A stretch of 64,000 bases of DNA from Romanomermis culicivorax (lineage: Eukaryota > Nematoda > Enoplea > Mermithida > Mermithidae), in assembly GCA_963922205.1 (NCBI GenBank), contig CAWUHX010000238.1, positions 248,001 through 312,000 of the forward strand, given 5' to 3'. The notes beneath the pieces are model-generated. The model ran no database searches. It saw only the letters and a program-made list of their open reading frames with translations, and was not told the origin of the DNA. Numbering within the stretch: the first letter of the stretch is position 1; the number at the start of each line of letters is the position of its first letter. The translations under genes were made by a program, and so were the position numbers. Positions 10,644 to 64,000 of this stretch are shown one piece after another.

Positions 10644-11194
10644 ATTGTGTATCGGTTTCCCGAATGTACTGGTATCCCGAATGTATCAGTATACCGAATG
10701 TATCGTTATCCCGAATAATGCATTAATTCTCGGCATCCCGAACACACGCGACTTTATTTTCTATTTCGTCACATTGACTGATTCTCGTTATCCCGAATAC
10801 ACATTTTTCCGCTTAGGCTTAGGCTTAAGCTTAGACATAGCCATAGACTTAGATATAGACTTAAGCTTAAGCTTAGGCTTAGGCTAAGGTGTACGCTTAC
10901 GCTTGCGCTTAGCCTGAGGCTGAAGCTTAGGCTTAGGTTAGGCCTAGGTTTGGGCTTAGTCATAGACTTAGGTTTAGGCTTAGGCTTAGGCTTAGGCTTA
11001 GGCTTAGGCTTAGGCTTAGGCTTAGGCTCAGGCTCAGGCTTAGGCTTAGCTTAGGCTTAGGCCCTGACATGATTCAGGGTACCGATACGTTCGGTCTAGA
11101 GAGAAATTTTTTTACTGTGAACACTGATCGGGATACTGAAACATTCGGGATACTGATACATACGGGATACCGAGGAATACCGCTACACAATAAA
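10644..11194. mobile_element. Inverted-repeat element carrying a TTAGGC array (copy 1)
   Basis: The left end reads TTGTGTATCGGTTTCCCGAA, followed by tandem ATCCCGAATGTA-type motifs. The right end carries the same motifs inverted (CGGGATACTGATACAT up to CCGCTACACAA). Between them lies a TTAGGC array. The copy at 29761-31053 has the same ends and the same block next to the array (GTTATCCCGAATACACATTT), in opposite orientation. The array therefore appears to be an integral part of a dispersed element. No ORF of its own was seen; poly-Leu/Ser frames here are products of the hexamer. Confidence 0.65.
10812..11066 (+). repeat. Interstitial nematode telomeric array 1 (TTAGGC)n
   Basis: Tandem TTAGGC units on the plus strand. 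The first part (10812-10960) is degenerate (TTAGAC, ATAGAC, TTAAGC variants) and the second part (about 10975-11066) is nearly pure. TTAGGC is the telomere unit of most nematodes. The array is interstitial because unique DNA continues on both sides. Confidence 0.92.
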
Positions 11195-30560: not shown

Positions 30561-30893
30561 AATCTAAGCCTAAGTCTAGGCCTAACCTTAAGCCTAAGCC
30601 TAAGCCTAAGCCTGAGCCTAAGCCTAAGCCTAACCCTAAGCCTAAGCCTAAGCCTAAGCCTAAGCCTAAGCCTAAGCCTAAGCCTAAGCCTAAGCCTAAG
30701 CCTAAGCCTAAGCCTAAGCCTAAGCCTAAGCCTAAGCCTAAGCCTAAGCCTAAGCCTAAGCCTAAGCCTAAGCCTAAGCCTAAGCCTAAGCCTAAGCCTA
30801 AGCCTGAGCTTAAGCCTAAGCCTAAGCCTAAGCCTAAGCCTGAGCCTGAGCATAAGCCTAAGCCTAAGCCTAAGCCTAAGCCTAAGCCCCAAA
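30561..30893 (-). repeat. Interstitial nematode telomeric array 2 (GCCTAA)n
   Basis: About 55 tandem TAAGCC units on the plus strand (TTAGGC on the minus strand), mostly perfect from 30585 on, with scattered TGAGCC and CATAAG variants. Long Leu/Ser and Leu/Arg frames on both strands are artefacts of the hexamer. Confidence 0.95.
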
Positions 30894-39399: not shown

Positions 39400-40250
39400 C
39401 TGTCCATTCATCGAATGTTCCGATTCTTCGAATCGTGCTTAAGATTTTATCTGGAGTCCCGCTTTAACGAAAGTCCCGATTCCTCGAAATTTTTTTTTCA
39501 AAAAATCCCGTTTCCTAGAAGATAATAAATGTGCAGGTTTAAATTTACCATTTTAAGCCTAAACCTAAGCCTAAGTTTAAGCCTAAGCCTAAGCCTAAGC
39601 CTAAGCCTAAGCCTAAGCTTAAGCCTAAGCCTAAGCCTAAGCCTAAGCCTAAGCCTAAGCCTAAGCCTAAGCCTAAGCCTAAGCCCAAGCCTAAGCCTAA
39701 GCCTAAGCCTAAGCCTAAGCCTAAGCCTAAGCCTAAGCCTAAGCCTAAGCCTAAGCCTAAGCCTAAGCCTAAGCCTAAGCCTAAGCCTATGCCTAAGCCT
39801 AAGCCTAAGCCTAAGCCTAAGCCTAAGCCTAAGCCTAAGCCTAAGCCTGAGCCTAAGCCTAAGCCTAAGCCTAAGCCTGAGCCTAAGTCTATGTCTAAGT
39901 CTATGTCTAAGCCTAAGCCTAAGCCCTAAGTAGAGTCTTCATATTATCAGATATGGTAATTTTGAAATTACAGTATTTACCATAAAATTTACAGACGTTT
40001 CAAGAAAATCGAACTGTTTGTATATGCACTTTCGGTTTACTGGGAGATGTGATGCACCAATGTTCGACAAATCATAAATTTTATCTTCTTTTAGAGGAAT
40101 CGGGACTTTCACAGAATCGGGAAAGGAAATTCATGATGCACTAAAGCAGGTTTCGAGGAATCAATAATTTATCTAATTTCCGAATAATCGGGATTTCCGA
40201 AGAATCAGGAATTTCCAGGAAAGGGGACGTTCGAGGAATAGGGATACAAC
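39400..40250. mobile_element. Inverted GATTCCTCG-type repeats flanking telomeric array 3
   Basis: Left of the array, TTCCGATTCTTCGAATCG, GTCCCGATTCCTCG and ATCCCGTTTCC recur. Right of it, GAGGAATCGGGACTTTC, AATCGGGATTTCCG and GGGGACGTTCGAGG occur in inverted orientation. The design, inverted short-repeat blocks around a TTAGGC array, parallels the 10.6 and 29.8 kb elements, but the terminal motif belongs to another family. Confidence 0.55.
39556..39930 (-). repeat. Interstitial nematode telomeric array 3 (GCCTAA)n
   Basis: About 62 tandem TAAGCC units on the plus strand, with few variants (CCCAAG, CTATGCC, TGAGCC, and TCTATG near the right end). It is the longest of the three arrays. The 134-codon Leu/Ser frame over it is an artefact. 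Confidence 0.95.
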
Positions 40251-47255: not shown

Positions 47256-48602
47256 GAAAACAAAGACCACTTGGAAAAAATCGTCATCACTTGAAAAAAT
47301 TTGTTATCACGTGAAAAGATCTGTAACCACTTGAAAAAAATCGTTACCTTCAAACATAATGCACTACATTTTTTAAGATGCATCTAAAAATTTCAAGATG
47401 CATCGCAAAAATTTCAAGATGCATCACAAAAGCATCAAGATGTAAGAGTTTTCCTATGTTCGACTTTCTATTCAAGTGCATCGAATTTTTTTGCACCATA
47501 TTTATTTAAGATAATGTTGAAAAAATCAAGATGTCATCTTGAAAAAAAATTAAAATCCCACTTTGACCTATTGTCGAGAAAAATCAAGTTGGGCGGCACA
47601 TCAGAGAATGAAAAATTCTGAAACTGGCCAATCAAAGGCGCTGTCTTCGTCTCCTACGAGAACTCTTCAAAGTAGATTTCTGAGGTCACGACTTCCTAGA
47701 GTGAGGGCGTCACCGGAATTCATGGTCTGTGATAGGGAGAGGGAGTTTATCTTGCACGGGGAACCCGATGGACATAATGCTTTTTCATGAAAAAATTATT
47801 TTTTGAAATTTTTCAAAACGCCCGCTTTTCACCCAAAATGCAGTAATTTCGGAAAAAAGGATGTATTTTTGTTTCTTTGTTGGATGTTCTATGATCATTC
47901 TCTATATGCTCAGAAACCCGACAAAAAAGCGAAAATTTGGATCTTTTTTCTAAATTAGTGCATTTTAGGTGAAAATCAAGATTTTTTGAAGTTTTTCTGA
48001 AAAATCTCCAAAAATAAATTTTTTTATGAAAAATCAATATGTCCATCGGATTCCCCGTGAAAAATAAATTCCTCCACCTTTAATCTATTTTCAAGGGTTC
48101 TCGAAGATAAGAGGCGGAGCAACGCCTTCGATTTACTAGGTTCAGTAATTTTCATGCTTTGATGTGCCGCTCATTTTGATTTGTTATCGAGATGGGATCT
48201 TGAATTTTTCAGATTGCAATTTTGATATTTTTCAATATTGTCTTGAACAAAATGCGATAGGCTTGAAAAATTGCGATGCACTTGAAAAGAAAGTCCTCTT
48301 TTCCGACTTGTCTTTTCCGACGGAACGGAGAGAAATGCAATCGACGGAACTTGACGTAACGAAAGGGAAATTTTCGGTTTTGTTGGAGGTTACCATCGGT
48401 CGTTTTCCGGAAAATTGCAGTTGTCCATGCCGACCGAAAGTGGATTTTCAGGTTGAAAGTTTGAAGCTTTTGATGATCCATTTAGTTCCGTTCCGTCGTA
48501 ATAGGCAAGTATAAATGAGCCTTTACATCTTGAAATTTTTGCGATGCTTCTGATACTGTGCATTATGTCCTAAGGTAACAAATTTTTTCAAGTGATAACA
48601 TG
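47256..48602. mobile_element. 1.35-kb near-complete palindrome (foldback B)
   Basis: Inverted pairs in order from the ends to the centre: CACTTGAAAAAA with TTTTTTCAAGTG; TTTCAAGATGCATC with GATGC..CTTGAAA forms; GGCGGCACATCAGAG with CTTTGATGTGCCGCTC; AAAGGCGCTG with AACGCCTTCG; ACGAGAACTCTTC with GAAGGGTTCTCG-type sequence; GGGGAACCCGATGGACATAA with TATGTCCATCGGATTCCCCG. Centre near 47929. The ORFs inside (75-116 codons) lie on mirrored arms and are not supported as genes. Confidence 0.82.
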
Positions 48603-48683
48603 TTTTTAAATGCTCCTCCTCCTATTCCTTAAAATATGTATATTTTTATCGCTTGTTTCCTTGAAATGTAAAAGCAGCACATT

Positions 48684-50030
48684 GTCACGTGCCAACAAAT
48701 TTCGTTGAATGTCACGTGATTCAAATCACAACTTTTCGTTATGTTTTTCGTTACGTTTTGTGTTACAGTAATTTGCATCAATTTTACGTTTCGTTTTTAT
48801 AATTTTCACATGCAATTTATGTGTGTACTTTTTATGTTTCCTTTCTGTTTCATTTGTTGTTATTATTATATTTTTATATTGTCAACTGCGTTCGCCGCTC
48901 GTCCAATAAATTTGCATATTCTCGCCTCCAGCCTCCTTTTACGTTACCTAAATCCCCTTATTGGCCCTGACCTTAAGGGTCTGAGGGCTTTCTCAAATCA
49001 GGGTACTTCCAAGGGAAACTAGCTTAGGGGAGACTCCCACAAATATACCCTCAACAATAATAACCCCTGAGAAGACTCACTAAATCCTCTTCTCAAAGTA
49101 CTCAGCACTGGGTGACAGGTTCTAGGGTCAAAGCGTGGGGCATTACAGATGGCCATGAACGGGTACAGGAATCCGAGTGATTTGGCATGGGGTAATGCGG
49201 CTGTGGATCGGCAGGTGGCCGTATCAAACTTTTCCTCGGGGAGGGCCATAGGGTTCCTGATTAACGGGACGGGGGTGAGTTCCTACGGTCGGGTTGCTGT
49301 TGCTGGTAACGTAAACGAAGGCTGGAGGCGAGAATATGCAAATTTATTCGACAAGTGGTGAACACAGTTGACAATATAAAAATATAATAATAATTGATGA
49401 GCGGCAAACACGAAACGCAAGGCTAAAAAGACGCAACAACAGTTAGGCCCAGAAATGAGTGACAAACTAACGAAATGTGCCCTTTTAAAGGGCTCCATAA
49501 ACTACAGTATGCCTTGGGCGGAGTTAACATTCCCCCAAGCTAACTTCTGCAGCAGAAATCGTTGCGGAAGATGCCTATGGTCACATAGACATTTTCCAGT
49601 TCACAACGTTAAGCATTGGGGTGAGTTTTCACTCTCCATGCTTAACATAGGAACGTCAACTAGTGAGAATTTCAAACTAGTCGTTTCATGTTGTGAAACA
49701 TCGCTAGGTTTTACTGATAAGAGGTGCACATTGTGCTCCAATTACAGTGATGCCCTCAGAGAGCTTATCTCTGATGGAAATTCTTGACTAGCGGGTACAT
49801 ACTGTAGTCTACGTGTGCGATGGAAAATAATAAATCGAAACAGAAATAAAATGTGCAAAAATGAAACAGAAACGAAACACAAAAAGTACACACATAAATT
49901 GCATGTAAAAATTATAAAAATGAAACGCAAAATTGATGCAAATTACTGTAACACAAAATGTAACGAAAAACATAACGAAAAATTGTGATGTGAATTACAT
50001 GACATTCGACGAAATTCATCGGCACATGAC
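48684..50030. mobile_element. Inverted-repeat structure C at the left end of the retroelement
   Basis: GTCACGTGCC, GTTGAATGTCACGTGATT, GTTACAGTAATTTGCATCAA and GCATATTCTCGCCTCCAGCC on the left (48684-48946) recur inverted on the right (50030 back to 49306). The right arm carries about 430 bp of extra sequence (about 49410-49840). The spacer starts with the 46-bp repeat shared with the window end. It is either a third foldback or the retroelement's LTR with a fragment of a second, inverted LTR beside it; I cannot decide. Confidence 0.6.
48947..48992. repeat. Candidate left LTR tip (direct repeat with window end)
   Basis: 46 bp beginning CCTAAATCCCCTTATTGGCC is repeated at 63955-64000 with one difference (A/G). 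Neither copy begins with the usual TG, so this may not be the exact LTR end. Confidence 0.55.
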
Positions 50031-50045
50031 ACGGCGGTCCTTCGA

Positions 50046-50100
50046 ACTTCCACGGACATGCTGCACCCTTGTGTATTGGGTGCAGCATGTCCGTGGAAGT
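50046..50100. repeat. Perfect 23-bp hairpin
   Basis: Positions 50046-50068 (ACTTCCACGGACATGCTGCA plus CCC) are exactly complementary to 50078-50100 around a 9-nt loop (TTGTGTATT). It has no mismatches, unlike all other palindromes here. It lies 16 bp beyond inverted-repeat structure C and about 260 bp from the putative polypurine tract. Confidence 0.85.
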
Positions 50101-50359
50101 CAAAGGTTCAGGTGACGGTGACGGCGGGCGGTCTATGGTCCAGTGGTTTTTCGGTGCATTTTGGCTTGGGGAGTTATGTCAATGGTGCGTGGAGTTGCTG
50201 ACGTCAATTGATCCCTTTGGTGAAGTTGCCATTTGTCAATTGATTTGTGAAATCTGAAACGAGACTAAAAGAAAAATTTTAGAAGCCAGATATAGGCTAT
50301 CGCACAGATGCACCTGTGATATGAGGCAATACCCTAGTTTAGATGCATTGATCGCTGCT

Positions 50360-50372
50360 CATTCTCCTCTTT
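50360..50372 (-). promoter_or_regulatory. Candidate polypurine tract next to a TG-starting LTR end
   Basis: On the minus strand AAAGAGGAGAA is followed directly by TGAGCAGCGATC. This is the arrangement expected at the 3' end of an LTR element internal region (plus-strand primer, then LTR starting TG), and it lies just after the integrase stop. No second copy of TGAGCAGCGATC was found in the window. Confidence 0.4.
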
Positions 50373-50481
50373 ATACTGCTGTTCCAGCATGGAACAGGGG
50401 TGGGTATTCCATGAGGGGCACCACGGTTCTTTTGAAAAAGGAGGACCCCGTCCGTAAGTAAAGAAGAGAAGAGCTACTTGA

Positions 50482-51231
50482 TTACGGGTCGGAGACCTCT
50501 GCATCAAGATGTGGGTCAATGAGATCCTGTGTGAAATCTCGGTTTGTTGATGGAATCAACAAAGGTGCCATCTCGACTACCTGTGAAGAGGAAGGTATCT
50601 CCTCGGCCTCAGTAGGCTGAGCAGGTGACACATAGCATCTAAGCTGATTGACATGCACAGTATCTTCTTGATTTGTCTCAAGCCGAATGGTGACATAGGG
50701 GTATGCCACATTCCTTACAAAGTAGGGCCCATCATAAATGGGCAGCAATTTAGGCGTCAGACCATGTTTGCCGGTAGTGCGCAGTTTGAGCACTAGATCA
50801 CCAACTTTGTATGAGACATCTCGTGCCATGGGATCGTAAGACCTGGCATAAGCCGCCTGTGATCTCTCAATTCGGCTCTGTATCAAAGTCAAGGCATTTG
50901 TAAAATGCCGTTTGACCTCCATATCATAAATAGAAACATCTATGATATGGGCAAGAGGGTTGAATGAGAGCGCCGCATCAACAGGTAGCATGGGGGTATG
51001 ACCATACATGAGCTCAAAGGGTGAATACCCTGTGGACTCATTCATGCTAATGTTGACAGCAAACACAGAATACGGCAGGTGTTCATCCCAATCAGTATGA
51101 CCTTGGTGGACATACATACGTAGCCCTGTAGCTAGCATCTGATTTGCTCGTTCCACTTCTCCATTTGTCATCGGGTGATAAGCGGTCGAGTGGATTTTCT
51201 TAGTTGAACAAATGGCAGTGATTTCAGTCAT
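50482..51231 (-). pseudogene. pol: Integrase, C-terminal half (pol)
   Basis: 249 codons continuing the integrase after a TGA at 51316-51318. It carries the third catalytic residue (Glu25 in PMTNGEVERANQ) and helices of the catalytic core (WDEHLPYSVFAVN, GYSPFELMYGH). The GPY/F module follows (KVGDLVLKL, then LLPIYDGPYFV near 162-172) and a Ser/Glu-rich tail. No chromodomain was seen. The second catalytic Asp lies in the interrupted stretch just upstream (SDCGTDF). Confidence 0.9.
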
Positions 51232-51315
51232 CAGTTTGGAGGTGAAATCAGTACCACAATCAGACTGAAGAATCTGCGGTGCCCCATGTCTGCAGACAAT
51301 TTGTGTAACAAAAAG

Positions 51316-51735
51316 TCATGCTATGGTTTGCGCTGGAATGTCCGTAGTAGCGAAAGCTTCAACCCATTTGGTAAAGTAGTCGATAAAGACTACAATAAAA
51401 CGGTTTCCACTTTCACTAGTGGTCATTGGTCCCATACAGTCAACACCGACTCGATGAAATGGTCCCGTAATGGAGATCGGTTTCAGAGTTGCAGGGGTCT
51501 TTTGTCTCGCGGGTTTATTCCATTGGCAAAGATCACACTGCTGACAAAAGGACTTGATGTCCGCACTGAGAGAAGGCCAGTGGTACCTGCGGGCTATAAG
51601 CCTCGCAGTACATTTTGCACCAAAGTGTCCAGGAAGAATGTCATAATGGTGAGCCTCAATAATGGTAGTAACCATTGATCGAGGAATGACAATCTTGTTG
51701 GACTCGCCTGTCCACTTCTGAAGGATGTTATCCAA
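51316..51735 (-). pseudogene. pol: Integrase, zinc-binding and catalytic-core start (pol)
   Basis: H2C2 zinc finger: His29/His30 and His37 (EAHHYDILPGHFG) with Cys64, Cys67 and Cys70 (SFCQQCDLCQ). The core opens with the first catalytic Asp (RVGVDCMGPM, about residue 99) and VVFIDYFTKWVEAF. The frame is bounded by TAA at 51817-51819 upstream and TGA at 51316-51318 downstream. Confidence 0.9.
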
Positions 51736-51816
51736 CAGGTGGTAGCCATTAACATCATTCTGGTCACCATAGGGTTTTAGTGACCTAAGAATGGAGGCTA
51801 GTTCCAGATCCTCAAA

Positions 51817-52473
51817 TTAAGCTGCGAGAAGGTCATGGTGATGCGCATCCTGTGATATCTCTGCATAAGACTCAGACCTCTCCAGGCGCTGCTTACCATC
51901 AGTGGTCCTTTGGGATGATCTCGCCAGGCGCTGCACACCATCTGAGATCATTTGGGATGTTCTCGCCAGGCGCTGAGCACCATCAGAGATCATCATAATT
52001 TCTCCCTCGGGTCTGTATAGGGGAGTATCGTCAATACTCTCCCCGGCAAGGGAATTAGGATCGGGAAGGCGTGATAATGCATCAGCATTACCATTAGACC
52101 GACCTTTCCGGGGCCGAATTGTCAGTTTGAATTCAGCTAACGCAAGGCCCCATCGAGTTTCCTTGGCTGAAGGGTTGGGTTTTTCCAACACAGCCTTAAC
52201 AGCCGTATTATCAGTCTGAACGACCACCTCATGTTGAAAGAGGTAAGGCCGAAAGTGCTTGAGGAAATGGACAACAGCGAGAGTCTCTAACTCTCTAATA
52301 GTGTAGTTCTTCTCAGCTGCCGTTAACCCTCTACTGGCGTACGCAACAGGATGGTCGTATCCATTATCATCTAACTGGCTCAGAACTGCCCCTATCCCCG
52401 AAATACTTGCATCAGTTTGAAGCATGAAGGATTTCATAAAGTCCGGATTGCCCAGAACAGGAGGGTTCATCAA
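51817..52473 (-). pseudogene. pol: RNase H domain with a tandem-repeat tail (pol)
   Basis: Contains QTDASISGIGAVLSQ (Asp21), RELETLAVVHFLKHFRPYL (Glu61), VVQTDNTAV (Asp88) and NADALSRL (Asp131), the full catalytic set of gypsy-type RNase H. After it, residues about 162-203 hold three diverged copies of SDGxQRLARxSQ, an internal duplication I do not associate with the family. Upstream TGA at 52480-52482, downstream TAA at 51817-51819. Confidence 0.9.
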
Positions 52474-52479
52474 CAGCCT

Positions 52480-52671
52480 TCAGAGTTCGTTGAATGCTGC
52501 TTGCTGAGGTTTTGACCACAGGAAGGTAACTTCCTTCCGTAAGAGCTTGGTCAGCGGCTCACTGAGCTGAGCACAACCAGGGATGAAACGCCTGTAATAA
52601 GACCCAAGACCAAGAAAAGACTTGATGTCTTTGGGGTTTTGTGGAATGGGTAGATCCTGGACGGCAGCCAA
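52480..52671 (-). pseudogene. pol: RT thumb/connection segment (pol)
   Basis: Encodes VQDLPIPQNPKDIKSFLGL, YYRRFIPGCAQLSEPL and FLWSKPQQAAFNEL, the stretch between RT palm and RNase H in gypsy elements. It is cut from the palm by the 138-bp insertion at 52684-52821 and from RNase H by a TGA. Confidence 0.9.
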
Positions 52672-52683
52672 TTTGACTTTATC

Positions 52684-52821
52684 TATTGTAGTGTGTTTCC
52701 CCCGATTTTTCAGAGCCGCGCCAAACGCCCATCAAATTTTAAAATACAACACTGGTGAACCGTCTGGCTCACCTGTTGCAACCCTAGAACCCGCCGCCCG
52801 ATTTTTCGCCCGATTTTCGCC
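52684..52821. mobile_element. 138-bp insertion in the RT gene with a 19-bp direct repeat
   Basis: CAGCCAATTTGACTTTATC occurs at both 52665-52683 and 52822-52840, and the coding sense continues exactly once the insert and one repeat are disregarded, so the repeat is a target duplication. The insert is GC-rich with CCCGATTTTTC/GCCCGATTTTCGCCC motifs and, on the minus strand, GGGTTCTAGGGTTGC, which faintly resembles a pol III B box. The long duplication suggests a retroposed (SINE-like) origin. A TIR transposon is unlikely. Confidence 0.7.
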
Positions 52822-53186
52822 CAGCCAATTTGACTTTATCCCGCTCTAGGCCATTCTGTATGATACAAAAACCTAGATATTCTACCTCTGAGTGTAAAAA
52901 CTTGCACTTGCTCAGTCTGAGCTTCATTCCACCCTGACGGAGACACGTAAACACATCCATCATGCACTCAAGCATCTGGGTGTGAGAGTTCCCGAACACC
53001 AAGATGTCATCGAGATAGGTCAATGCTGTGCGCCACAGCAATCCCATGAGAAGCAGGTCCATGAGACGTTGAAATGTCCCAGGTGCATTGCAAAGACCAA
53101 AAGGCAGATAGTTGAACTCGCAAAGTCCAATAGGCGTATTAAATGCTGTTTTCTCTTTGTCTGCCTCAGCAATAGGTATAGACCAC
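52784..53186 (-). pseudogene. pol: RT palm with YLDD active site (pol)
   Basis: Follows the TAG at 53186-53188. The frame covers IPIAEADKEKTAFNTPIGLCE, FGLCNAPGTFQRLMDLLL, then TYLDDILVFGNSHTQ (the Y-x-D-D catalytic pair), CLRQGGMKLRLSKCKF and VEYLGFCIIQNGL. The last codons before 52784 are read into the insertion and are not RT. Confidence 0.9.
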
Positions 53187-54718
53187 TAGGCATTAGCCTG
53201 ATCAAGGGTAGTAAAGTATTTCATACCCTTGAGTGTGTCGAGGATATCATCAATCCGTGGGAGAGGATAGACATCCTTTTTCGTGACCTCGTTAAGACCA
53301 CGAAAGTCCATACACATCTGGTGTGACCCATTTTTCTTGCGAACCAGAATGGTGTTAGTAGCCCAGGGAGAAGTGCTAGGCCGAATAATACCTTTTTCCT
53401 GGAGCCCTTTGACTTCTTGTATGATGAGATCCTTTTCCTTGGGCCCTGTGCGGTAAGGGAAACGGCGGACTGGGGGAGCATCACCCGTGCTAATCTCATG
53501 GTGCACGAGGTCAGTGGAACCTGTGTCCTTTTCATCAATAGCATAGAGGTCAGTGAATGCGACCAGTAGATCGAGGAATGCTGTTTTGTCCTGTAAGTAG
53601 ATATCAGAAGATATCACAGCATTTGCTTCAACCCACTTTCGGTCAAGAATGGTATCAGACTTGACCGTGGATCCCTGTGAGGAATCAGTGTGCATCTGCA
53701 CATGACCAAAGGTTGTGTGCGGGTAGAGAACCACTGGGTGTGTACTCGGGTCAACTACCTGTAGGGGTATGCGACCATTTGTCACAGTTCTCACAGTACC
53801 AGCAAAATACACACTGCGTTGTTGTCCCAAAAGGGGCCTAGGAAAGAAAGCTACCTTGGGCACAGTCGCATATAATGAAGGTACAGGTGCAGTAAATTGT
53901 GTCAGCAAGCGAGGCTCAAGGACAATCAACTCCTGCAAGGGTAGCGCCCCACGAGCGGAAGGAGGATTGTGAATGAGGCCCTCACACGGAACCCGAAGTT
54001 CCTTGAACTGAAGAAAGGATTTCTCCCAGTTCAAACTGATGCGATTGAACCGTCCGAGGAAGTTCGTCCCCAAGACTAGTTCAGCTGAACAGTTCTCTTG
54101 AACTTGGACCTGAATCCTTTCAGAGACATCAGCCACTGTCATCGTGACATATACAGCGCCTAGCAGTAGAATCGGAGACCCATTGGCTGCTATGGGGCGA
54201 GCCCTAGTCTTTGTGAGTACCAAGTCGGGCAACTGAACCGCCAACTTGTGATCCAGGAGTGAGAAAACTGCTCCTGTATCAATTAGAGCTTTGGCTTCCA
54301 CCCAATTGTTCAGTAGAACTCTGATATGAGGGGTCTTCATTTCAGTGGGGTAGAACGCTGACACCACATGACCTGGGTCAGGCACGGAGTCATAAAAACT
54401 CGACTCTGGCACGTCGGTTTGCCTCCGTATGGGCAAACCAGTGCCTCGGAGTAATCCTACCAGAGCATAACCAACTGATGTTTCCGGATTGGCCCGAGGA
54501 GTGGGATGAACCTGAACAGTAAGTACATGATCTGATCTTTCTCCTGAGCTCTGCGTAGCTCCTAGTGATTCAACCTCAGCATCAGATAGTGGTGGCACCT
54601 CTAGTACTGGGGATGCAGGCGCATCAGAATCACTAGGCTCACGAAAATGGCCTTTCTCTAGTGTAACCGGAGAATTTCCAGGTGGGGGTCGAGGACAGTT
54701 TGACCCTGACCTAGCCAT
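53186..54718 (-). pseudogene. pol: Retropepsin 2 and RT N-terminal half (pol)
   Basis: 510 codons. Residues 1-130 are a low-complexity linker. Residues 130-225 form an aspartic protease: VEAKALIDTGAVFSLL (D-T-G at 147-149), PIAANGSPILLLGAVYV and CSAELVLGTNFLGRF, the flap and I-L-G-type motifs. RT begins about residue 405 (PVRRFPYRTGP, EVKGLQEKGIIRPSTSPWA, LVRKKNGSHQMCMDFRGLN, YPLPRIDDILD) and reaches the first catalytic Asp in FTTLDQANA before a TAG. The reading frame continues upstream past 54718 to about 55033 with one TGA (54794-54796), so this ORF is the main pol frame. Confidence 0.92.
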
Positions 54719-55165
54719 AAAATGACTACTGGCCTGTCTAGAAGTGGTCTGGCTACCTCTGGTTGACCCACGTGATGAGGCAACCAGGCAAGCTCAGGAG
54801 GGTGGCCGAGAAATGGATGAAGTCCTTGATCTTGATCAAGACCCGGACCTGTGTGAGGCCCTTGATAGTGAATGTGTGTTCTCCCACCAGGATTTGACCT
54901 GATCAATTTCGGCTGCTGTCAGAAGAAGTGGCAGTTCTACCCCATTCAATGGACAGACATGTTGTTGGTAATCAAAGGTGATATTCTGGAATTGTTCTAG
55001 AAAGTCCAATCCAAGAATCAGATTGACTGGTGCTCAGAAAGGAGACGTAGTCTTACACACATGGAGATGTATATCCACTCTTGTGTGTGGCTGACGGGTT
55101 CCAGGCAACATGATCTCATATGGTCCCAATAGGAGAGTATGGACGGCCTTCCCATTATACTCATT
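54719..55165 (-). pseudogene. pol: Retropepsin 1 C-terminal part and linker (pol)
   Basis: In the frame of the 53186-54718 ORF this region encodes NGKAVHTLLLGPYEIMLPGT, a TGA (55034-55036), then APVNLILGLDFLEQF. The last motif is the I-L-G-x-D-F-L signature of retropepsins. An Arg/Ser-rich linker with another TGA (54794-54796) follows. The matching D-T-G lies upstream in the glycoprotein ORF's frame, with a change of frame near 55160-55168. Two complete protease motif sets therefore lie in tandem before RT. Confidence 0.75.
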
Positions 55166-56898
55166 AATGGGTTAAAGTCGTGATGTTGCTGGAAAGCCAT
55201 CGCCGCCTTCGGACTCTCTTTAATCAGCGCTTTGTGAAGGTGTTGACTAATGATGGTCCGTGGACAACCAGTGTCAAGGAAAGCAGGAGTTTCCTTGTGG
55301 TCAACTAGTACGACAAAACACGGAGTGATCCTGTCTAACTGAGTTGGCACATCGTTCTGTACGTAATGAAAACCTACCCAACGCTGAACTTTCCGGAGGA
55401 GGTTCAACGGAGAGTATTGGCTAACAAACCGAACCTGTCTTCTCCGCAGGCCGTAACTGAGGTAATAGGAGATCCCAACGTAGATGAGAAATCCTGTACC
55501 GGTCAGCACTGCCAGAGCAATGAGTGTGTTAAAGATCAACTGCACTGGTCCACTCAAAAGAGGCTGTAAGCCCTGTATGAAGTTGTGCTGCTGACCAGTG
55601 ATCACGTGGTTTGCTGCCAGACCAACACCTTCCAGTGAGGCTTTGATGTCAGTCCCTACCCCCGCAACTGCCTGATACAGAGTATCTGGTTGTAGGGATA
55701 GACCAGCGGTATAATTTACCAACCGGTTCAGGACCGCTTCAATTTGCTCAGTCTTGTAAACGTACTGTTTAAAGAAAGCAAAACTTGAAGCGGTCATCTC
55801 CAACTGATCATGAAAGAGTGCAGGAGCGTCAAAGTGAGTGACTTTGAAGTGCTGTTTCCAGAACAGTTCAAGCGGAATGTGGCTAACATGGACCGTGCCA
55901 GACTCAGTAAACCAGCCCGAGCGATTTCGGAAAATCCCCATGAAGTGGTGATCACACCGCACTTTTGGACTGAATTTAGTGAGATCTGGGCCACCGGGGG
56001 TGGCAAAATAAATGGTACCGCCAACCTGTACGGGTAGATACTTGTAACAGGTGTCCCCCACCTGGTACGAATGGTGGATATAAGTGGCATTGACCTTTCG
56101 ACACGGCCATATCCTCAGTGCTTCACCCGTGAATTCTGCCATCAGATCATTCCTTTGCAGGAATACCCGGGCTCCTAGTGTAGGGTCAAAACGAAGCAAC
56201 TGCCAAGTCAGATCAAGGTAGCGTTGAGCATGAGAACACAACTCAAGCCACATGAATCGAAAATTGTTAATTTCCAACTCTCTGATCTGCTGAGCCAGGT
56301 AGTTCAGTTTGGCATTGACGGGGTCAGGACAGGAGTCCTTTGCCAATCCGAACAACCTTTGGGTCAAATTAAATCTTCCGTGGATGCGTAGAAGAAGACC
56401 CTGATCCGTTTGCACTGTGTTCAACCGGAGGTCAGGACAGAGCCGAAAGACGCAATAGTTTCTCTTGATCTTTAGGGCAACCTGAAAATCATCAATGATG
56501 ATATGGTTCCCTGACACAGACGCAGTGTAATTACCCTGAGGGCGATAATGACACTGTGCTGTAAAGTTTGTGGCAGGCCAAATTATTACCCTGTCTAGAG
56601 TAGTGCATTGACCTGCAGTGGGACTGCATCTACCTACATCTCCTAAGATACTTAGAGCTGTAGTGCCATCCCACGAAGCGACCTGTCCCTCTTCAATGAA
56701 GAGGTTAGTCACTGTTTTGCAGACGTCATTGCAGCACCATGAGTACATCACTTCCAGTGTTTGGTTAGTGCTATAAAAGCCAGGACGTATTTCCACGAGC
56801 TTTTGTAAACCAAATACCTTCGTGCGATGTGCTAGCGTACAAGCTGCAGGCGCTAGATGCTGAGTGGTAATGACGTCTGCAGTAATGCCCCTAGATCC
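55018..56898 (-). pseudogene. Envelope-like glycoprotein, main part, running into retropepsin 1
   Basis: The frame is open from about 56898 to 55018. In the ORF counted from 56796, residues 1-415 are an ectodomain with many cysteines (CCNDVC at 21-26, C57, C64, C82, C115, C120) and seven N-x-S/T sites. The segment CHYRPQGNYTASV with HIIIDDFQVAL is distinctive and, from general knowledge, recalls glycoproteins of chuvirus/Mononegavirales type that LTR elements have captured; this is not verified. Residues about 417-449 form one strong membrane anchor, followed by a basic stop-transfer (RRRQ) and a short tail. At 505-517 PAFLDTGCPRTII starts an aspartic protease (D-T-G at about 55275-55267). 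It carries no RT and precedes pol. Confidence 0.75.
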
Positions 56899-57251
56899 AA
56901 AAAACCAGTGTTAGTGCACACCTTACGGTTTCGCAACGTGCACTTCCATTCTAAAGTAGTGATTGGATCAGAAATAGGAACATACACTGTAACATTCATG
57001 CGTCGTGGACTCCACGAAGATTTTGGTGACTTGCATTCAACTTTTTGAGGTAGCTCAAGTAGATGACCGCTTCTTGAAAGACCACAAAATTGGTACTGAG
57101 TAGCATGTATTGCGGAGCTCATTCCTAGGAACAGTAGTGTCACGAAGGCCCAATTTACTATGTGCAAAATATTTACAAATGGTGCTCGTAAATATACACC
57201 AAAATGTACAGTTTTCACGCCTCGGGCGGCTTCATTCTTCGTCGTCATCAT
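56853..57251 (-). pseudogene. Envelope-like glycoprotein, N-terminal part
   Basis: The likely start is the ATG at 57251 (or 57248), which overlaps the last codons of the upstream acidic ORF. After about 20 residues a hydrophobic stretch (IVNWAFVTLLFLGM) ending in SSAIHATQ looks like a signal peptide. The ectodomain follows (QFCGLSRSGH, KVECKSP, LEWKCTLRNRKVCTN). The frame stops with TAG at 56853, while the coding sense continues in another frame. The shift lies at the A6 run 56899-56904 (T6 on the coding strand), either a one-base loss or a slippery site. Confidence 0.7.
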
Positions 57252-57823
57252 CGTCCAACGATACCGGGTCCTCTCCGGGGAAGTTGATGACCAAGCCTCG
57301 GCACAGGTGGACTTCGCGAAGAACGCCAATCTTCGGGGACCGCGGGATGGCTGCCGTCGGGAATGGCTCCATGATGCTGACATTGTCATTGACGGCGCGC
57401 AACATTTCTCCAAAGGCGTTGGCGACCGGTTGCTGTTGAGCAATCACCGCCAGTGTTTGGGCTCCTGTCGTCCTTGTTGATGGTGACGCTGCAACAACTG
57501 CTGAGGGCCCCACATTGCGACTGGCTTCCTCCACAGCCCGGCAGACGGCATCCATTGCCAGCAACCACGGTTCACCGTCCAACAGGATCTTGTCCACCGG
57601 GGTGGCACGAATCGTTCCGTCGGCGATAAACTTGAGTGCTCGTCAAGCGACGTCAGGTCCCAATATCCACAACGCTGCTGGCCCTGATAGCACCACATCC
57701 GCGGCTGTAAGCGCCTCAACCTCCAACGGCTCGTTGAGTAGCGCCCATGGGAGGTGCGGATACTTCTTGGCCAAATCCGTTGACCAAACGGCCCGCATCG
57801 TGTCGGTGACGGATGAGGAATCT
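57232..57823 (-). pseudogene. Unknown ORF between gag and glycoprotein, acidic C-terminus
   Basis: The frame runs from about 57823, after an acceptor-like TTTACAG, to a stop at 57232, with one TGA at 57643-57645. It includes [38 protein letters not shown], then [20 protein letters not shown], a Ser/Thr/Ala linker and an acidic end (DDDDDEE). The stop overlaps the glycoprotein ATG by about 20 nt, a compact arrangement typical of viral genomes. The family is not recognised. A donor-like GTAAAC near 57906 and the acceptor suggest a small intron joining a short ATG-initiated leader that overlaps the gag stop. Confidence 0.5.
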
Positions 57824-57916
57824 GTAAACCAGAAATCATTAAAGCCGGTGACTTATAAGGATATCTGATTTTCAGACCTGAAACGTCAGAAAAAGAAGGT
57901 AGTTTACCTAACAGAT

Positions 57917-59569
57917 TCATCGATTCCAATTGACGGAGACCTCCAATGCCGAGTCCATAGGAATTCCGGGCAGCGGTCCTTGGGTGATAAAACGTGCCCG
58001 AGGCGCCGGTGTACCTTCCGTCAGTCGATATGACGCGATTACGCTGACATCGTCAGTCGTTTTTGGTGTGGTTGACGGGTTTACGTTGACCGGCGTCACG
58101 TATTTCCGCGGCAGTGGCGGCAAAGCCGACAACGGAGTTGGTGCCGAAACCACTGCGGCAGCTGAAAACCCAATACTGATTACACAGACAGGATAACACA
58201 GTTGTGAGTGATCCGCCAGATGTTCAGCCAGAACTTCATCATTCAGATCAAACAGATCTGGGTGAAGAAGACTGTCGGTGGCCCTTACGGCATTATTTTG
58301 CCCTGGGGGTGACCGATATTGGTTCCCTGTCCCGTGAGGAGTTGGATTAGCATAATGCCGAAAATTTCCACTTGCCCCCTGAGGAAAGTAACCAGAATTA
58401 CCAAAGTTAGTCTCACCAGGCAGTGTCCAATTCCGATTTGGGCAGGCCGTAGCCCTGTGCACTCATAATTTCCGGCAATGCAGGCAGGGTCTGTCCCATT
58501 GGTCAGTTGGGTGCGCCCTCGTTCGACAAAAATAGCAACGGCTGGCGCCGGTGGCTGTGGCGGTGCTAGCGCCGGCGCTATCGGGATGTTGGGCCCAGCA
58601 ATTAGCGTTGTTGTGGGTGCAACATCCATGGTAGGAGCACATCTGTAAATGTGCCCCTAACGGGCGATCGCCAGCGTTTTGGATGTGCGTCAATGGCGTC
58701 CTTGATGGCATCGAACTTCTCCGAGGTGGCGCCGATTGCTGAGCCGTAAGTCGGGCAACATGAGCCGTAAGCGGGGCCATTTCCGATTGTAAATGTCCAA
58801 TTTTGTCGGACGGGGTTGCAGACGGACCTTGAGTGGTGCCCCTTTGATTCAACATTGACCTGATGTTGTCGGCGGTCGTTTGTTCTGAAGAGAAAACAGC
58901 ATTAGATGGGGCAGTATACCTAATCTCATCCCGAAAAATTTGCGATTCTGCATAACAGGCTGCTTTGAGAGTCTCTTCAAGAGTTGTGAACTCCCTGAAC
59001 TTAATACTATCTCAAAGGACTGGTCTCAACCCTCTCAGAAAGATAGGTTTTATAATGGAATCCCTAACGTCAGTTGCGAGATCCGGATAAGCCACCCTGG
59101 ACAGTCTCTTAAGGTGCTCAAGGTAGACTATCCCGGACTCAGTCGGCTTCTGCAGGTGATCCTGGATCAACTGCTGATGCAGATCTGAGTCACACCCTAC
59201 TGGAAAGTCTCGCCTAAGAAAAGCCGTGAACTCTTCGTAGAAGGGAGGCTGCAGAGTACCACCGCTAAAGTCCCGATAGGATGCGAGAGCAGGACCTGTT
59301 AGGCAAGACTCCAGAAACGCGATTTTATATGCATGATCCATTTCTGTTACTCCTTGAAGTGTAAAGAAACGGGTCACGTGAGATATAAAGTCCGTTATAG
59401 ACTCACCAAAAGCACCTGAAAAGGCAGGAGGGGCCATGAAGCTGGACACAGGAGGGTGCCTTCTGCCATTCATAGCCTCCAGCTTTTGGTTGAGTGGTCC
59501 AAGGGCATTTTCAAATGCAGCTTGGACCTTATTCTCAATCTGTGAAGGTAGATCGACTTCTGACGTCAT
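57917..59569 (-). pseudogene. gag: Gag (capsid and nucleocapsid)
   Basis: One frame of about 550 codons from the ATG at 59569 to TGA at 57917, with two internal TGA codons (59012-59014 and 58463-58465). Residues 35-185 are a retrotransposon Gag/capsid fold: PPAFSGAFGESITDFISHVT, KIAFLESCLTGPALASYRDF, FYEEFTAFLRRDFPVG, GIVYLEHLKRLSRVAYP. Further on are Cys/His clusters (CSYHGCCTHNNANCW; CYFCRTRAHPTDQW; CLHCRKL, stop, VHRATAC). The last resembles a CCHC knuckle with a TGA inside it. The C-terminal part is Pro/Ser-rich. Confidence 0.88.
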
Positions 59570-61200
59570 AGTTGAGAGTTCGTCTTCCTGTAAGGTTAGC
59601 TAAGACTGATAATCGTGCCTGTGAAGCTATTCGATCAAACTGAATAGAGAGGGGCTCACTTGTCTGCTTAAGCTTATTACTAAGGGGACAGGAACGTCTA
59701 GGTGTCTCTATTTTGTGAAGGTGAAGTAAGTGTTACTCTTGTAGTCGCGTGGCGAAGAGGTGCGGGAATTACGAGATTGTTTACGGGACGGCGTTTTGAG
59801 GCTTTAACGTTTGTTCTTTACAACAACTAGCGACCACTCAACGATGGGGCTAGAAAAGAACAAGGTTTTAGCCCTCAGAACGGCCAGAAGGTAAGATAGG
59901 TTGACTCAGAAGGGAAGTTATCTGGTCACCTATGTACTTAGAGAGGGGATAACCCGAGTGTAAAGAGAGGGGAGATTATACCCAAACTTTAGTGAAGAAA
60001 TGGTTCTAGACCGGGTTATTTAAACCAAAAGTAAATAAATTTAAATGAAATGGTGGTTTCCCAACCGTAAGAAAGAAGGACAACGTGAATACGTTCAGAT
60101 AAACCTGCCCAAAAGGGAATTTTATTTGGAGGTTAAGTCCATTGTGCTAGTTCACAAACCTTGGATATGGGAGAGCTCGTAATGGACAAATTCCTACTCA
60201 CCAGGAGTAGCGCATGGAGTAGCTTAAGAATTAATAAGTAAAGGGGGACAACTTAAAGTAAACTTAATGGGTGTAAATAGATAGGGACAAAATTAGTTTA
60301 CACACCAGACTATGCAAAGGGGATGCCCTATTATGCGATCAGTCTCACTCACTAGGAGCAATTGCGAACTCTGAAAAGTGTGATGACTAGACAGGAGGTT
60401 CCCAAGGGGACGACATTCGCACGTATTCTACAACCATGCCCAAAACGGGAGTGCGCGTCTTGAACAGAACAAGAACTCTCCAGGAGTATTATATATAGCT
60501 GGGGGCCGGGATTCCAGTCACTGAGATGAAGTGAGGATCGCTAGGTCACCAGTTGAGAGTAAGAGCACCAGGTACCGAGGTGCTATTCTGACACACTCAG
60601 TCAGTAAATGGGTGGCATGGGGGTCCTTGGCCCAGCTGTGCCTAAATGGAGGTGGGGAAATGCAGGCTTCCTCCTATGAATCGAGGCTAGGCCCAATGCA
60701 TCTTGAGATCAGGGGTACAGTCTGTCTCAATTAAATGAGTGAAAAGTGAAGGGCTAAGGCGGACTTAGTTGTAATGTGTTTAGGCGGACTCGAACACCTT
60801 CCCTTAGGCGGGCTAGCGGCATATTATGCTAAAGGACAAACCAACGGAGGTGGACTCAGGATTAAGGGCCACTCTAGTGCGGACATTATTAGGCCAGCTA
60901 ACGAAGGCGTTTGAGTGTAACGAATGATTACAGAGGGGTCTTTTACACTTTAGGCCCAAACAGTGGCTGTGCCGTAATTCCTGAGGAATTATTCTGGCAG
61001 GGACACTAAAGAAGATCATAGATGAGAAAGAAATGCAGGAATTTAGATAAGAAATTTACAGGAAGATTGTCAACCCTTGCAGTTGTTAGACACAGGCAGT
61101 ACTGACTGCAAATGCCTAATGGTTGCTTATGTTGAACAACCAACCCAGCTGAGGCCGAGTGTAAACCCCTTCAAACCTGCACTTAAAGCTCAGAAGGTGG
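59570..61200 (-). other. Leader-like region upstream of gag
   Basis: No gene is supported. Composition matches the retroelement rather than the AT-rich host DNA. A TATATATA run at about 60488-60498 is a candidate promoter on either strand. Motifs of the form TTAGGCGGACT/CTAAGGCGGACT recur at 60750-60900. A GTTCGAGTCC sequence (minus strand, near 60789) resembles a tRNA B box, but the flanks do not fold as a tRNA. Confidence 0.45.
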
Positions 61201-61540
61201 TCCATCAGTGCAGCTACCCTGGCAGACAACTTGATTAGTACCACGGACTGAGTGCATCCCAGGTTGAGTGAGCATATCTACTGATGTCTCCCAGGCACCA
61301 GTGACACACAGACACAACCCTCAAACAAGAGCCATAGGTGAGAAGGTAATACTCCAATCATCTCCTTGGACTCAAGTGGCATCCTGGAAACCCACAGTAA
61401 CCCGGTGCGGACGTCAAAAGATGTGATATACACCACCACACACTCGGTGCTGACCTCAGGTAACTGGGATGTAAGTGCCATAGTCTCATATTGCAGTATG
61501 TACGCAAAAAAGTATAAGCCTACGGCTACAGACTTCTTAT

Positions 61541-62230
61541 GGCAATATGGGGCATCGCCGTTGCTGATGCCAGAATAAGACTGTAAAGTCTTAATTCTGA
61601 TACTGGAATAGAGACATTATCATTGTGGACATCAGTAGATAGCACCCTAAGGCCAGCAACCCTGCTACGACAACACGGAGCATCGCCGTTGCTGACGTCA
61701 TAAGGTAATAGCTGAGTCGCAGTTATCCTACAACAATTATATGAGATGCAGTTGTTGCAGATGCCAGATGTGCGGTTTGTAAGGCCTCACATCTCTGAAC
61801 AACAATACGGTGCATTGTTGTTGCTGACGTCGAGGACTGAAGTCGGAATAGCTGACCAATCCTAGTGCAACAACACGAGCCTCTGCTGTTGCAGACGTCA
61901 GAAAGACAATGCCTTACGGTCACCATCCCGCAATAACAACCTGTTACATTGCCATTGCTGACGTCAGGGGTAGAGCCGGAGGGCCACCCACCCCTTAAAG
62001 CAACAGCAAGGGATGCAGCTGTTGCAGACACAGGGGGAGGACACAAAGAACCATCAACCCCTCAATTGCCACATGCTATGCGGCCATTGCTGACGTCAGA
62101 GGCATGACCCAGCTAGGTATGCCTCAGTGCAACAGCACCATGTGAGGTAGTTGCGGACGTCAGAGGTAAGGTCGCCAAGACACGTCACCTCATAACAACA
62201 ACACAATAAGTTGTTGTTGCTGACATCAGT
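61541..62230. repeat. Array of hairpin plus CRE-palindrome units, about 66-bp period
   Basis: Eleven CTGACGTCAG-like sites start at 61564, 61626, 61691, 61757, 61823, 61891, 61957, 62024, 62089, 62153 and 62219, spaced 62-68 bp. Three contain a perfect TGACGTCA (61693, 61959, 62091). Most are preceded by a hairpin of the AACAACA..TGTTGTT type, e.g. a 9-bp stem at 61798-61806/61814-61822, 9 bp at 62194-62202/62210-62218 and 8 bp at 62000-62007/62018-62025. Many spacers form a second hairpin with unit-specific stems: AAGACT/AGTCTT (61577), AGATGTG/CACATCT (61766), AGGCAT/ATGCCT (62100), GAGGT/ACCTC (62163). More degenerate units may extend left to about 61220. Function unknown. Confidence 0.8.
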
Positions 62231-63090
62231 GGTCACGATCGATAAGATGGTCATCACGTGCAGCTACCTAGAGAGAGAAGAGAAGGAAGAAGAAGACCGT
62301 ACATTAGTGGAAAAAAATAATAAAAATGACCTACTGAAGGGTTGCCAACTATGACATATGTGTGACTGGTAAAGAAAATGTGTTTTTTTTTGATAAATTT
62401 GAATAGAAGTGAGAAGAAAATGTTCATTTGCTTTTGGTAGGAAAAAGGATAAATTTTAATTTGTTTGTTTAGAAAAGGAGAGAGAGAAAAAAATGGATTA
62501 TTAGTCTTTATTTGAGTTGATTTTTGAGATAAGAAAATTTATTGGGTGAAAAAGTTATGATAATTGGGTCACACATTATGCATAGAAGACCGAAAAAAAT
62601 AAAAATTAAAGTACATAAAATAAAATTTGAGGCCCGAGAGATAAGCAATGTGATCTGCTAAGTATGGTGTTATATGTGTCAACAGTATAATTTTGGCTTG
62701 TTTGGCCGGAAAAATGAGCAACTTGGCTAGTGCTCAGTGAAGATGAGAAAAATTTTGAAAAAGTGTGTTGACACACATACCGGACACAGATAACCAATCA
62801 CGACCACACTTGAGGTCCAGAATCAAGAGCGGAAGGAGTACTGTATCTCGTGATCAGAGATCCCAAAACACTCAGGGGCTGTGAAAACCTCATGGGCTGT
62901 GATACTCAAGTACCTGTACCCAGGTATACTGTAGTTAGAGTACGTGCAAATCCCAGTCGTACTGTAACCAAATAGCCATACGGCGGTACAGTAACCTATC
63001 TGATCACAGGCAGTGGATGGAGCCCAAAAAAATGGAAAAGAAAGAAGAAAAAAACTAAAGAAGAGAGCTCAGAGGAGATTTAGGCAGAAT
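62231..63090. other. Purine-rich and AT-rich part of the leader region
   Basis: No gene seen. 62265-62305 and 62460-62490 are GA-rich. Several TACTGTA/TACAGTA motifs occur at 62930-63000. No open frame of note. Confidence 0.4.
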
Positions 63091-63099
63091 ACTCTATTT

Positions 63100-63560
63100 A
63101 CTCGACTCTGGGAAATTATGACTCTTGGGGATCGACTCTGGGGGAAAATCTGACACCAGGGGATTAAATAAAGCTTACGGGTGTTACTGTACTCATAAGG
63201 CATTAATTTACTCACAAGAATCAGGAATTTAATCACACGTGGGGCAAATCCCGACCTACAGTAATTAAACTCTTACTCAAATGTGGTGCTATCTGAGTTG
63301 GCATTAAAACTCGACCATAAGGGCCTATTCCAACCTAAGGGGCAGTGTACCTGCTTACGGGCGTATCCGACTTACATGAGGGCAAAAATTCATCCTAAGG
63401 GTCAGTAATCCCACTTTGAATGCAAATCAGCCGACCTGAGAGAGGTTTCCCCCACTCAAGTGGTGATTCTCATGATCTGAGAGAGGTTGCCCCACTCAAA
63501 CCAAAATTTTACCTAATTGAAAGAGGTATCTCACTCAAAAGGGTAAAAGGTTCGTTCCTA
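63100..63560. repeat. Degenerate tandem of an ACTYACAAGGGCAAATTCC-like unit
   Basis: Words such as ACTCATAAGGCATTAAT, ACTCACAAGAATCAGG, ATCACACGTGGGGCAAAT, ACTTACATGAGGGCAAA and ATCCTAAGGGTCAGTAAT recur every 18-32 bp for about 450 bp. No two units are identical, so it is an old tandem array. It lies between the hairpin array and the candidate LTR start. Confidence 0.5.
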
Positions 63561-63954
63561 AGGACTGTAAAGTCAGACTTAAAGGTCGATTTTCCAGCCT
63601 CGCCATGTCACATTAACTGAAATTGGGAGCCATGTCACATTAAGTAGGGTTGTGATCAGTCACATTGATGGGAAAACTCATACCGTATCCCGTAGGTAAT
63701 ACGGCCATGACACTGCAAGTGACATGCTGTGACCCTGTTGGGTGGCTCCCTTTATGGTTTCAGTTTGGGAACCTAACCCAGCTGGTACTACCACAGATAA
63801 ACCTATGGTGTACCTCAGCCTCGTCCTTGGGTTCACCTGTAGAATAATAGACAACGCGGCCTGGTCAGGGGTGCCAATCCCTTGTCCTCATTCACTGGGA
63901 ATGAGGGACGGTGCCATTCGCAGAATGGCGTACTGAAGGGGACCCTATTGTTAA
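63561..63954. other. Unassigned stretch adjoining the candidate LTR
   Basis: Contains a local direct repeat of ATGTCACATTAA (63605 and 63632). Open frames of about 60 codons have no recognised content. The minus-strand sequence next to 63955 does not show a standard tRNA primer-binding site. Confidence 0.35.
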
Positions 63955-64000
63955 CCTAAATCCCCTTATTGGCCCTGACCTTGAGGGTCTGAGGGCTTTC
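63955..64000. repeat. Candidate right LTR start, cut by the window end
   Basis: Second copy of the 48947-48992 repeat. No standard TGG-starting primer-binding site was found just inside it on the minus strand, so the LTR reading is provisional. Confidence 0.5.

Follow-up and report, generated by a model that had tools for sequence, protein, structure and literature searches.

A tandem array of hairpin units with GACGTC-type linkers in the leader of an env-bearing Ty3-like element of Romanomermis culicivorax

Does a row of evenly spaced palindromes and hairpins in the leader of a retroelement act as RNA, as a set of DNA-binding sites, or as neither? This question is raised by a locus of the mermithid nematode Romanomermis culicivorax, located in a stretch of 64,000 nucleotides (contig CAWUHX010000238.1, positions 248,001 to 312,000 of the forward strand) which is called the window here and whose coordinates are used throughout. 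An original prediction made from the letters alone had described eleven units with a period of 62-68 bp at about 61541-62230 and had proposed selection on structure, with a palindrome-generating mechanism or a multi-site enhancer as other explanations. In this study, we analyzed the array by folding, by comparison of its copies and by searches of the organism's own genome (359 Mb, 595 contigs); all copies reported come from this one genome.

The array belongs to an env-bearing Ty3-like element on the minus strand, in which the leader is the stretch separating the 5′ LTR and gag. The inner end of the 5′ LTR was found at 63954-64000, continuing to window-equivalent position 64628, and the 47-bp repeat at the end of the window is this inner part. 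The 3′ LTR is located at 48946-49623, and comparison of the LTR pair (48946-49623 vs. window-equivalent 63954-64628) gave 91.8% identity across 680 columns. On the minus strand follow the untranslated leader (59570-63953, delimited by the LTR boundary and the gag ORF), the start of the gag ORF (59012-59569), an env-like ORF (55018-56910) that precedes pol and carries a Monjiviricetes_fusion domain, and pol itself (50482-54793), which contains aspartic protease, RT, RNase H and integrase H2C2 domains in several frames. The gene order in the window at 50482-59599 is gag, env-like fusion glycoprotein, then pol, and the domain order RT-RH-IN as well as the RT, RNase H and integrase themselves are as in Ty3/gypsy-like LTR retroelements. 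Two LTRs around gag and pol, as expected of such elements, are present, the gag match being weak (Ty3_capsid, E 0.0079, under its curated cut-off). In the 3′ flank, 48683-48948 repeats some of the LTR and the 3′ UTR (49305-49393, 49859-50031) in inverted orientation, and therefore the window copy may be rearranged. At the BLAST-defined boundaries of this one possibly rearranged copy, TG..CA termini, a target-site duplication and a tRNA primer site were not seen by eye, and we therefore use the name Ty3-like without a clade. Within the 4.4-kb leader, which judging from the anatomy of the element is probably transcribed, the array lies about 1.7-2.4 kb past the 5′ LTR and about 2 kb ahead of gag. 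The location in a retroelement leader had been predicted correctly, as seen from the LTR pair with 91.8% identity and the gag ORF starting at 59569.

Some further features of the window were recorded. The env ORF at 55018-56910 ends in a protease-like DTG stretch, as judged by eye, besides the Pfam aspartic protease in pol (53186-54793). At 50194, in the 3′ untranslated part, a lone exact GTTGCTGACGTCA is followed by a TCAATTGA...TCAATTGA repeat. Also, interstitial (TTAGGC)n arrays of 250-380 bp are located at 10811-11062, 30564-30888 and 39554-39930; TTAGGC is the nematode telomere repeat.

The whole array covers 61565-62228 with the minus strand as sense strand, and it consists of 11 GACGTC-type sites and 10 spacers with mostly two hairpins each. 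The sites end at 61572, 61634, 61700, 61766, 61832, 61900, 61966, 62030, 62098, 62162 and 62228, which corresponds to successive spacings of 62, 66, 66, 66, 68, 66, 64, 68, 64 and 66 bp and bears out the predicted number and period of the units; the period is near 66 bp with a 132-bp echo. In the window copy, the TGACGTCA core of a CRE/C-MARE site cluster is exact at three of the 11 sites, and GACGTC is contained in six. In the computed sense RNA, most of the ~66-nt units fold into a pair of hairpins, A and B, connected via the conserved linker UGACGUC(A)GCAA. The stem sequences vary from unit to unit while pairing persists, and all four stems named as examples in the prediction (AAGACT/AGTCTT, AGATGTG/CACATCT, AGGCAT/ATGCCT, GAGGT/ACCTC) are present in the sequence.

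All units have the minus strand as sense strand. Unit u10 (62155-62228) comprises a site, hairpin A (AACAACAAC/GTTGTTGTT), hairpin B (GAGGT/ACCTC) and the next site, and u9 (62091-62162) has the stems GCAAC/GTTGC in hairpin A and GAGGCAT/ATGCCTC in hairpin B. Hairpin B is weaker in u8 (62023-62098), and u7 (61959-62030) has a degenerate site at 62023-62030. The spacer of u6 (61893-61966), whose stems include G-U pairs, folds with -22.5 kcal/mol in sense vs. -6.0 in antisense. After u5 (61825-61900) follows u4 (61759-61832), whose hairpin A shows the clearest compensatory changes against the subfamily V described below. For u3 (61693-61766), the energy model did not recover the two-hairpin fold. 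The array is completed by u2 (61627-61700) and by u1 (61565-61634), in which hairpin B (GAATTAAGACT/AGTCTTATTC) has one bulged T; an extra degenerate unit, u0 (61508-61564), is better kept in subfamily V. Tandem two-hairpin units with a conserved joint might suggest an array of small-RNA precursors or ribozymes, but no Rfam family came near its gathering score in 59000-64000 (two matches, E 1.1 and 3, both outside the array), and we consider this origin of the hairpins hardly credible. A tRNA scan gave nothing within the array.

For the evaluation of the hairpins, both strands were folded and compared with shuffled sequences. The ten spacers alone gave a Stouffer z of -7.8 in sense and -5.0 in antisense, with z above 0 for 2/10 spacers on the plus strand and 0/10 in sense, and the best stems contained 164 Watson-Crick pairs vs. 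117.5 ± 6.8 in shuffles. Both the folding z and the pair count of the spacers are beyond those of shuffles, and thus the second hairpin predicted for most spacers is real. Folding of 61541-62230 as a whole, with 20 shuffles per strand, resulted in z -5.1 (plus) and -6.0 (minus). In local folding, the array again exceeded shuffled sequence (z -7.55 sense, -5.48 antisense), and the sense/antisense values for two control regions taken from this leader were -0.35/-1.41 and -1.21/-0.61. A sliding scan of 48500-63950 revealed good folding elsewhere too, e.g. at 49500-49850 and 50000-50149; therefore, the array is not the only structured part of the element.

G-T and A-C appositions in the stems can be used to distinguish the strands, and for this comparison stems were chosen by a score treating both equally. 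The window stems have 19 G-T and 6 A-C, with a difference of 3.4 ± 3.7 in shuffles. Over 40 copies, which are non-independent, 690 G-T and 178 A-C were counted (fraction 0.79 vs. 0.59 shuffled), and G-T exceeded A-C in 40/40 copies. This excess points to sense RNA, not to double-stranded DNA or first-strand cDNA, as the form in which the stems pair.

Further copies, which the prediction had suggested to search for, are present in the same genome, including 39 matches of the window type (W) and three loci of a second subfamily (V). The W set comprises 40 scored matches among 984 candidates, of which one is the window and the remaining 39 match at 92-94%; the hairpin of one unit alone had 317 matches with up to three mismatches (control 0). 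Mean pairwise identity of the 40 copies is 0.909 and the minimum 0.761, flanks counted, and the copies are old and decaying. At seven of the 11 sites GACGTC is predominant, each time in 28-33 copies, and the remaining four sites are mostly TGGCGTCA, TGATGTCC, TGGCGTCT and CGTCTGCA on the sense strand. Divergence in the array is 0.037 compared to 0.068 and 0.121 in the flanks, a difference without evidential weight since the copies were picked by their match to the array. A decayed satellite or tandem duplication trapped in the leader and having no function would agree with the ~66 bp period and its 132-bp echo, but the sites stay in register across the aligned copies, the units diverge yet keep their structure, and V retains the period; we regard such an origin as very improbable.

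Subfamily V was found via a triple-site pattern in which three exact sites are separated by 52-74 bp, corresponding to two intervals of 60-82 bp. This pattern fixed two intervals, so the spacing in V is partly imposed; the other intervals were free. The three loci (C4, C21, C51) have arrays 64-66% identical to W, with a spacing of 62-68 bp apart from a last interval of 95-96; about two W units are absent from V, and the C4 copy has an additional deletion. Their 8, 9 and 9 spacers gave Stouffer z values of -3.5, -3.1 and -2.8 in sense and -1.4, -1.3 and -0.6 in antisense, and several single V spacers fold no better than shuffles. Hairpin A of u4 is AACAACAAT-gcaccgt-ATTGTTGTT in W and AATGGTGAC-gcaccgt-GTCACTATT in V (C4 and C51, two of the three loci), with 5/9 pairs changed on both sides and one pair on one side by manual reading. 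It differs again in C21, where the loop is gcaacgt, and individual W copies vary there too.

Arms pair better within than across subfamilies in 12/16 helices (Wilcoxon p 0.008), cross-pairing being equal or better in the other 4/16. Mean arm pairing was -10.2 within vs. -8.8 across (antisense letters -8.4 vs. -7.3), a gain which comes largely from hairpin A of u4 and was obtained with hand-set, partly overlapping arm limits. In an alignment of 18 units, fitted to a structure that we had drawn ourselves, the covariation score was 0.319 vs. 0.238 ± 0.019 in shuffles, none of which reached it (0/500), and slid versions of this alignment scored at most 0.239. Double changes in the same alignment affected 7 pairs vs. 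5.3 in shuffles (85/500), which is not above chance. When 121 window-derived pairs were transferred to one V copy by plain sequence alignment, 10 were preserved through changes on both sides and 27 were lost; shifts of -1 to -3 still gave 7-9 double changes compared to 10 without a shift. Computation thus shows that stems covary between W and V, in accordance with the predicted covariation between copies as far as the score above 500/500 shuffles and the 12/16 helices are concerned, but not in the count of double changes. Likewise, conserved sense-RNA structure upstream of gag, a trait of packaging and dimerisation leaders, was found by computation and is weaker under plain sequence alignment.

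These results also bear on a mutational mechanism that makes palindromes without selection, i.e. template switching by reverse transcriptase, or editing of double-stranded RNA giving G-U pairs. Stems varying between units would fit such a mechanism, and A-to-G editing of paired RNA could also yield the G-U excess. The orthologous hairpins of W and V, however, persist with compensatory changes, with the loop of u4 nearly unchanged, and we judge the mechanism improbable.

Selection on RNA structure, as proposed at the outset, is supported by the stem covariation, the sense bias of folding and the G-T excess, but the rival reading as CRE-type DNA sites has support as well, because the motif is strongly enriched in the genome outside the element. 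The C-MARE of Maf is TGCTGACGTCAGCA. According to this reading, the array would be a multi-site enhancer or insulator to whose evenly spaced sites a host bZIP factor of the CRE or Maf C-MARE type binds, with hairpins that are incidental or secondary. TTGCTGACGTCAGCAA occurs 304 times in 359 Mb (reversed control 0), the places listed being scattered over many contigs, and triples of TGACGTCA with 52-74 bp gaps occur 191 times (reversed control 0). Among the 50 triples listed, 6 have spacers resembling those of W or V, and the remaining 44 come from C96, C97, C115 and C118. These contigs contain dense TGACGTCA clusters at C97:213-223 kb (L107), C96:926-928 kb (L109), C118:5.9-7.4 kb (L108) and C115:79.4 kb (L110). 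Three dense regions have 64, 17 and 52 TGACGTCA in 3.0, 1.5 and 2.5 kb with GCAA as the commonest flank in each, and the fourth has 6 in 0.8 kb with different flanks. TGACGTCA with a GCAA flank is therefore a favoured motif of this genome, and the array linker equals it: GACGTC is followed by N + GCAA in 211/240 cases in the 40 W stretches. The dense clusters outside the element hint at a possible undescribed host chromatin or regulatory system. A precedent is the gypsy insulator of Drosophila, where the 5′ untranslated region contains 12 binding sites for Su(Hw) (PMC8228293).

A DNA-site array would predict no covarying stems, no G-T excess and no sense-strand bias, and the clusters elsewhere show little or no spacer structure. 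For their spacers of 25-90 nt (31, 13 and 29 in three clusters), mean z was -0.11/-0.20, 0.35/0.45 and -0.45/-0.72, with a weak signal in the third (Stouffer -2.4/-3.9). The four TGACGTCA-rich regions have no similarity to the window leader or V at E 0.001. A covariance model of the unit (R1) gave 94 matches with E<=1 in these regions, which were rejected as they reached 7-26 bits and lay on both strands; 13 V matches scored 31-65 bits and window units up to 73. Such weak matches probably reflect the end motifs alone. As a complete explanation, we regard the DNA-site reading as rather unlikely; the RNA-structure and DNA-site readings are not mutually exclusive.

The leaders of related elements provide a further comparison. 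Many such elements were found with P0001, a metagenome env-protease-RT protein which has the same env-protease-RT order; in related families of the nematode, the match is spanned by an open frame reaching 2765 aa, with gag probably in frame. The order gag, env-like gene, pol recurs at many of these loci. Leader stretches of 6.6 kb from four related elements contained 0-2 GACGTC and no cluster, and the single R1 match in four other-family leader stretches (E 0.83) was counted as none. In family C (C278, C179, C53, C82), a leader stretch of 360-410 nt (L093 5840-6200; also L096, L097, L098) is structured in sense only in 4/4 copies tested, with z of -6.9, -3.6, -3.5 and -4.1 in sense and -0.3, 1.3, 0.9 and 1.2 in antisense. 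The four copies are non-independent, C278 and C179 being 98.6% identical in this stretch. AACC occurs 16-21 times vs. about 3 expected, and in three copies it is unpaired to 93-96% vs. 57-59% background, located in hairpin loops in only 6/21, 5/16 and 4/17 cases. Sequence alignment showed 0/91 pairs doubly changed and 8 broken. With no double changes and few motifs in loops, the case of family C is therefore confined to its fold bias and the unpaired state of its motifs. A leader that is structured and exposes a motif thus occurs without TGACGTCA.

In addition, L091 (5566-5790) and L092 (5749-6023, reverse complement) have tandem units near the gag-side ORF in which stems formed by inverted repeats can be seen by eye (outer stems GAGT/ACTC, GGGTT/AACCC, AGGTT/AACCT; loops UGG/AGG). 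As hairpin units these repeats were rejected, with sense z of -1.65 each and 3 and 7 of 100 shuffles as good. Among viral contigs, a search with a pol piece gave three pattern-matching stretches, none a relative, and a motif-pattern search gave 34 stretches, 0/34 with GACGTC pairs 55-75 bp apart, which were taken as chance. Viral contig L029 (538-3252) has eight TGACGTCA in about 2.7 kb with a spacing unlike that of the array.

An array acting as RNA only, its linker resembling the host motif by coincidence or shared descent, would agree with the fold bias, the G-T excess, the covariation evidence and the structured leader of another family without TGACGTCA clusters. Chance is, however, unlikely to produce a match of 12 bp (TGACGTCAGCAA) to the form favoured in the host, and we consider this version improbable.

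In our tentative reading, to which we give not quite an even chance, the array is an RNA domain that acts in cis and is multivalent, located in the leader of the genomic RNA of this Ty3-like, env-bearing element. Repeated motifs and self-complementary linkers would allow the RNA to bind or pair at many points, in dimerisation, in packaging by Gag or in export. The RNA of yeast Ty3 is reported to dimerise through short palindromes near its 5′ end (PMC11381356), and by analogy the linkers are plausible pairing points; a dimer role for every linker is unlikely, because at four of the 11 sites most copies of the family deviate from GACGTC. In integrated DNA, the same linkers could be sites for a host CRE/Maf-type factor regulating the element, and the array thus appears to carry DNA sites of a host type together with its own RNA hairpins. 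A fuller version is possible, if on the doubtful side: as DNA, the array would offer evenly spaced host-factor sites; as RNA, these would become the linkers of a tandem hairpin domain multimerising or marking the viral genome, and related lineages in the same genome would fulfil the RNA role by differently structured leaders that expose another motif (AACC).

With this array, an LTR element bearing env has in its leader a modular RNA domain that is supported by covariation. Its natural variants, some 300 copies, two subfamilies and a differently built structured leader in another family, make it directly testable how elements of this kind mark their RNA as their own. The host DNA motif shared by the array also forms clusters outside the element, a hint that these elements may be connected to a chromatin or regulatory system of the host not described so far.

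That no LTR leader of this design had been described was part of the original prediction, and it stands for the combination of hairpins and palindromes, of which we found no description in the literature searched, largely papers accessible without subscription; it does not stand for the components, as multi-site arrays in leaders and palindromic motifs in LTR elements are known. The Su(Hw) motif of gypsy is also used elsewhere in its host genome. Like the gypsy insulator, the array is a multi-site array in an LTR-element leader with a repeated motif favoured in the host genome; unlike it, it has TGACGTCA-type sites, a spacing of ~66 bp and covarying RNA hairpins in the spacers, and insulation would here be an analogy. 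Sirevirus elements (plant Ty1/copia) carry multi-copy palindromic motifs with a CGG-CCG core in LTRs and upstream of ENV, according to the excerpted text of PMC2829016, and thus share with our element many palindromic motif copies in non-coding parts, often together with an env-like gene. Our array lies in the leader, and the Sirevirus description in that excerpt is without covarying hairpins. With the dimerisation and packaging leaders of retroviruses, Ty1 and Ty3, the array has in common a structured 5′ RNA with self-complementary sequences, and it differs from these leaders, as far as the excerpt of PMC11381356 describes them, by up to two hairpins per unit, ten tandem units, and palindromes that lie in linkers and not in loops. 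Anakin belongs to the BEL/Pao elements. Anakin and similar elements combine a chuvirus-type glycoprotein with an LTR element (PMC12440569), as does the present one with its env-like gene of this type; unlike in Anakin, pol has Ty3-type domains here and env is located between gag and pol.
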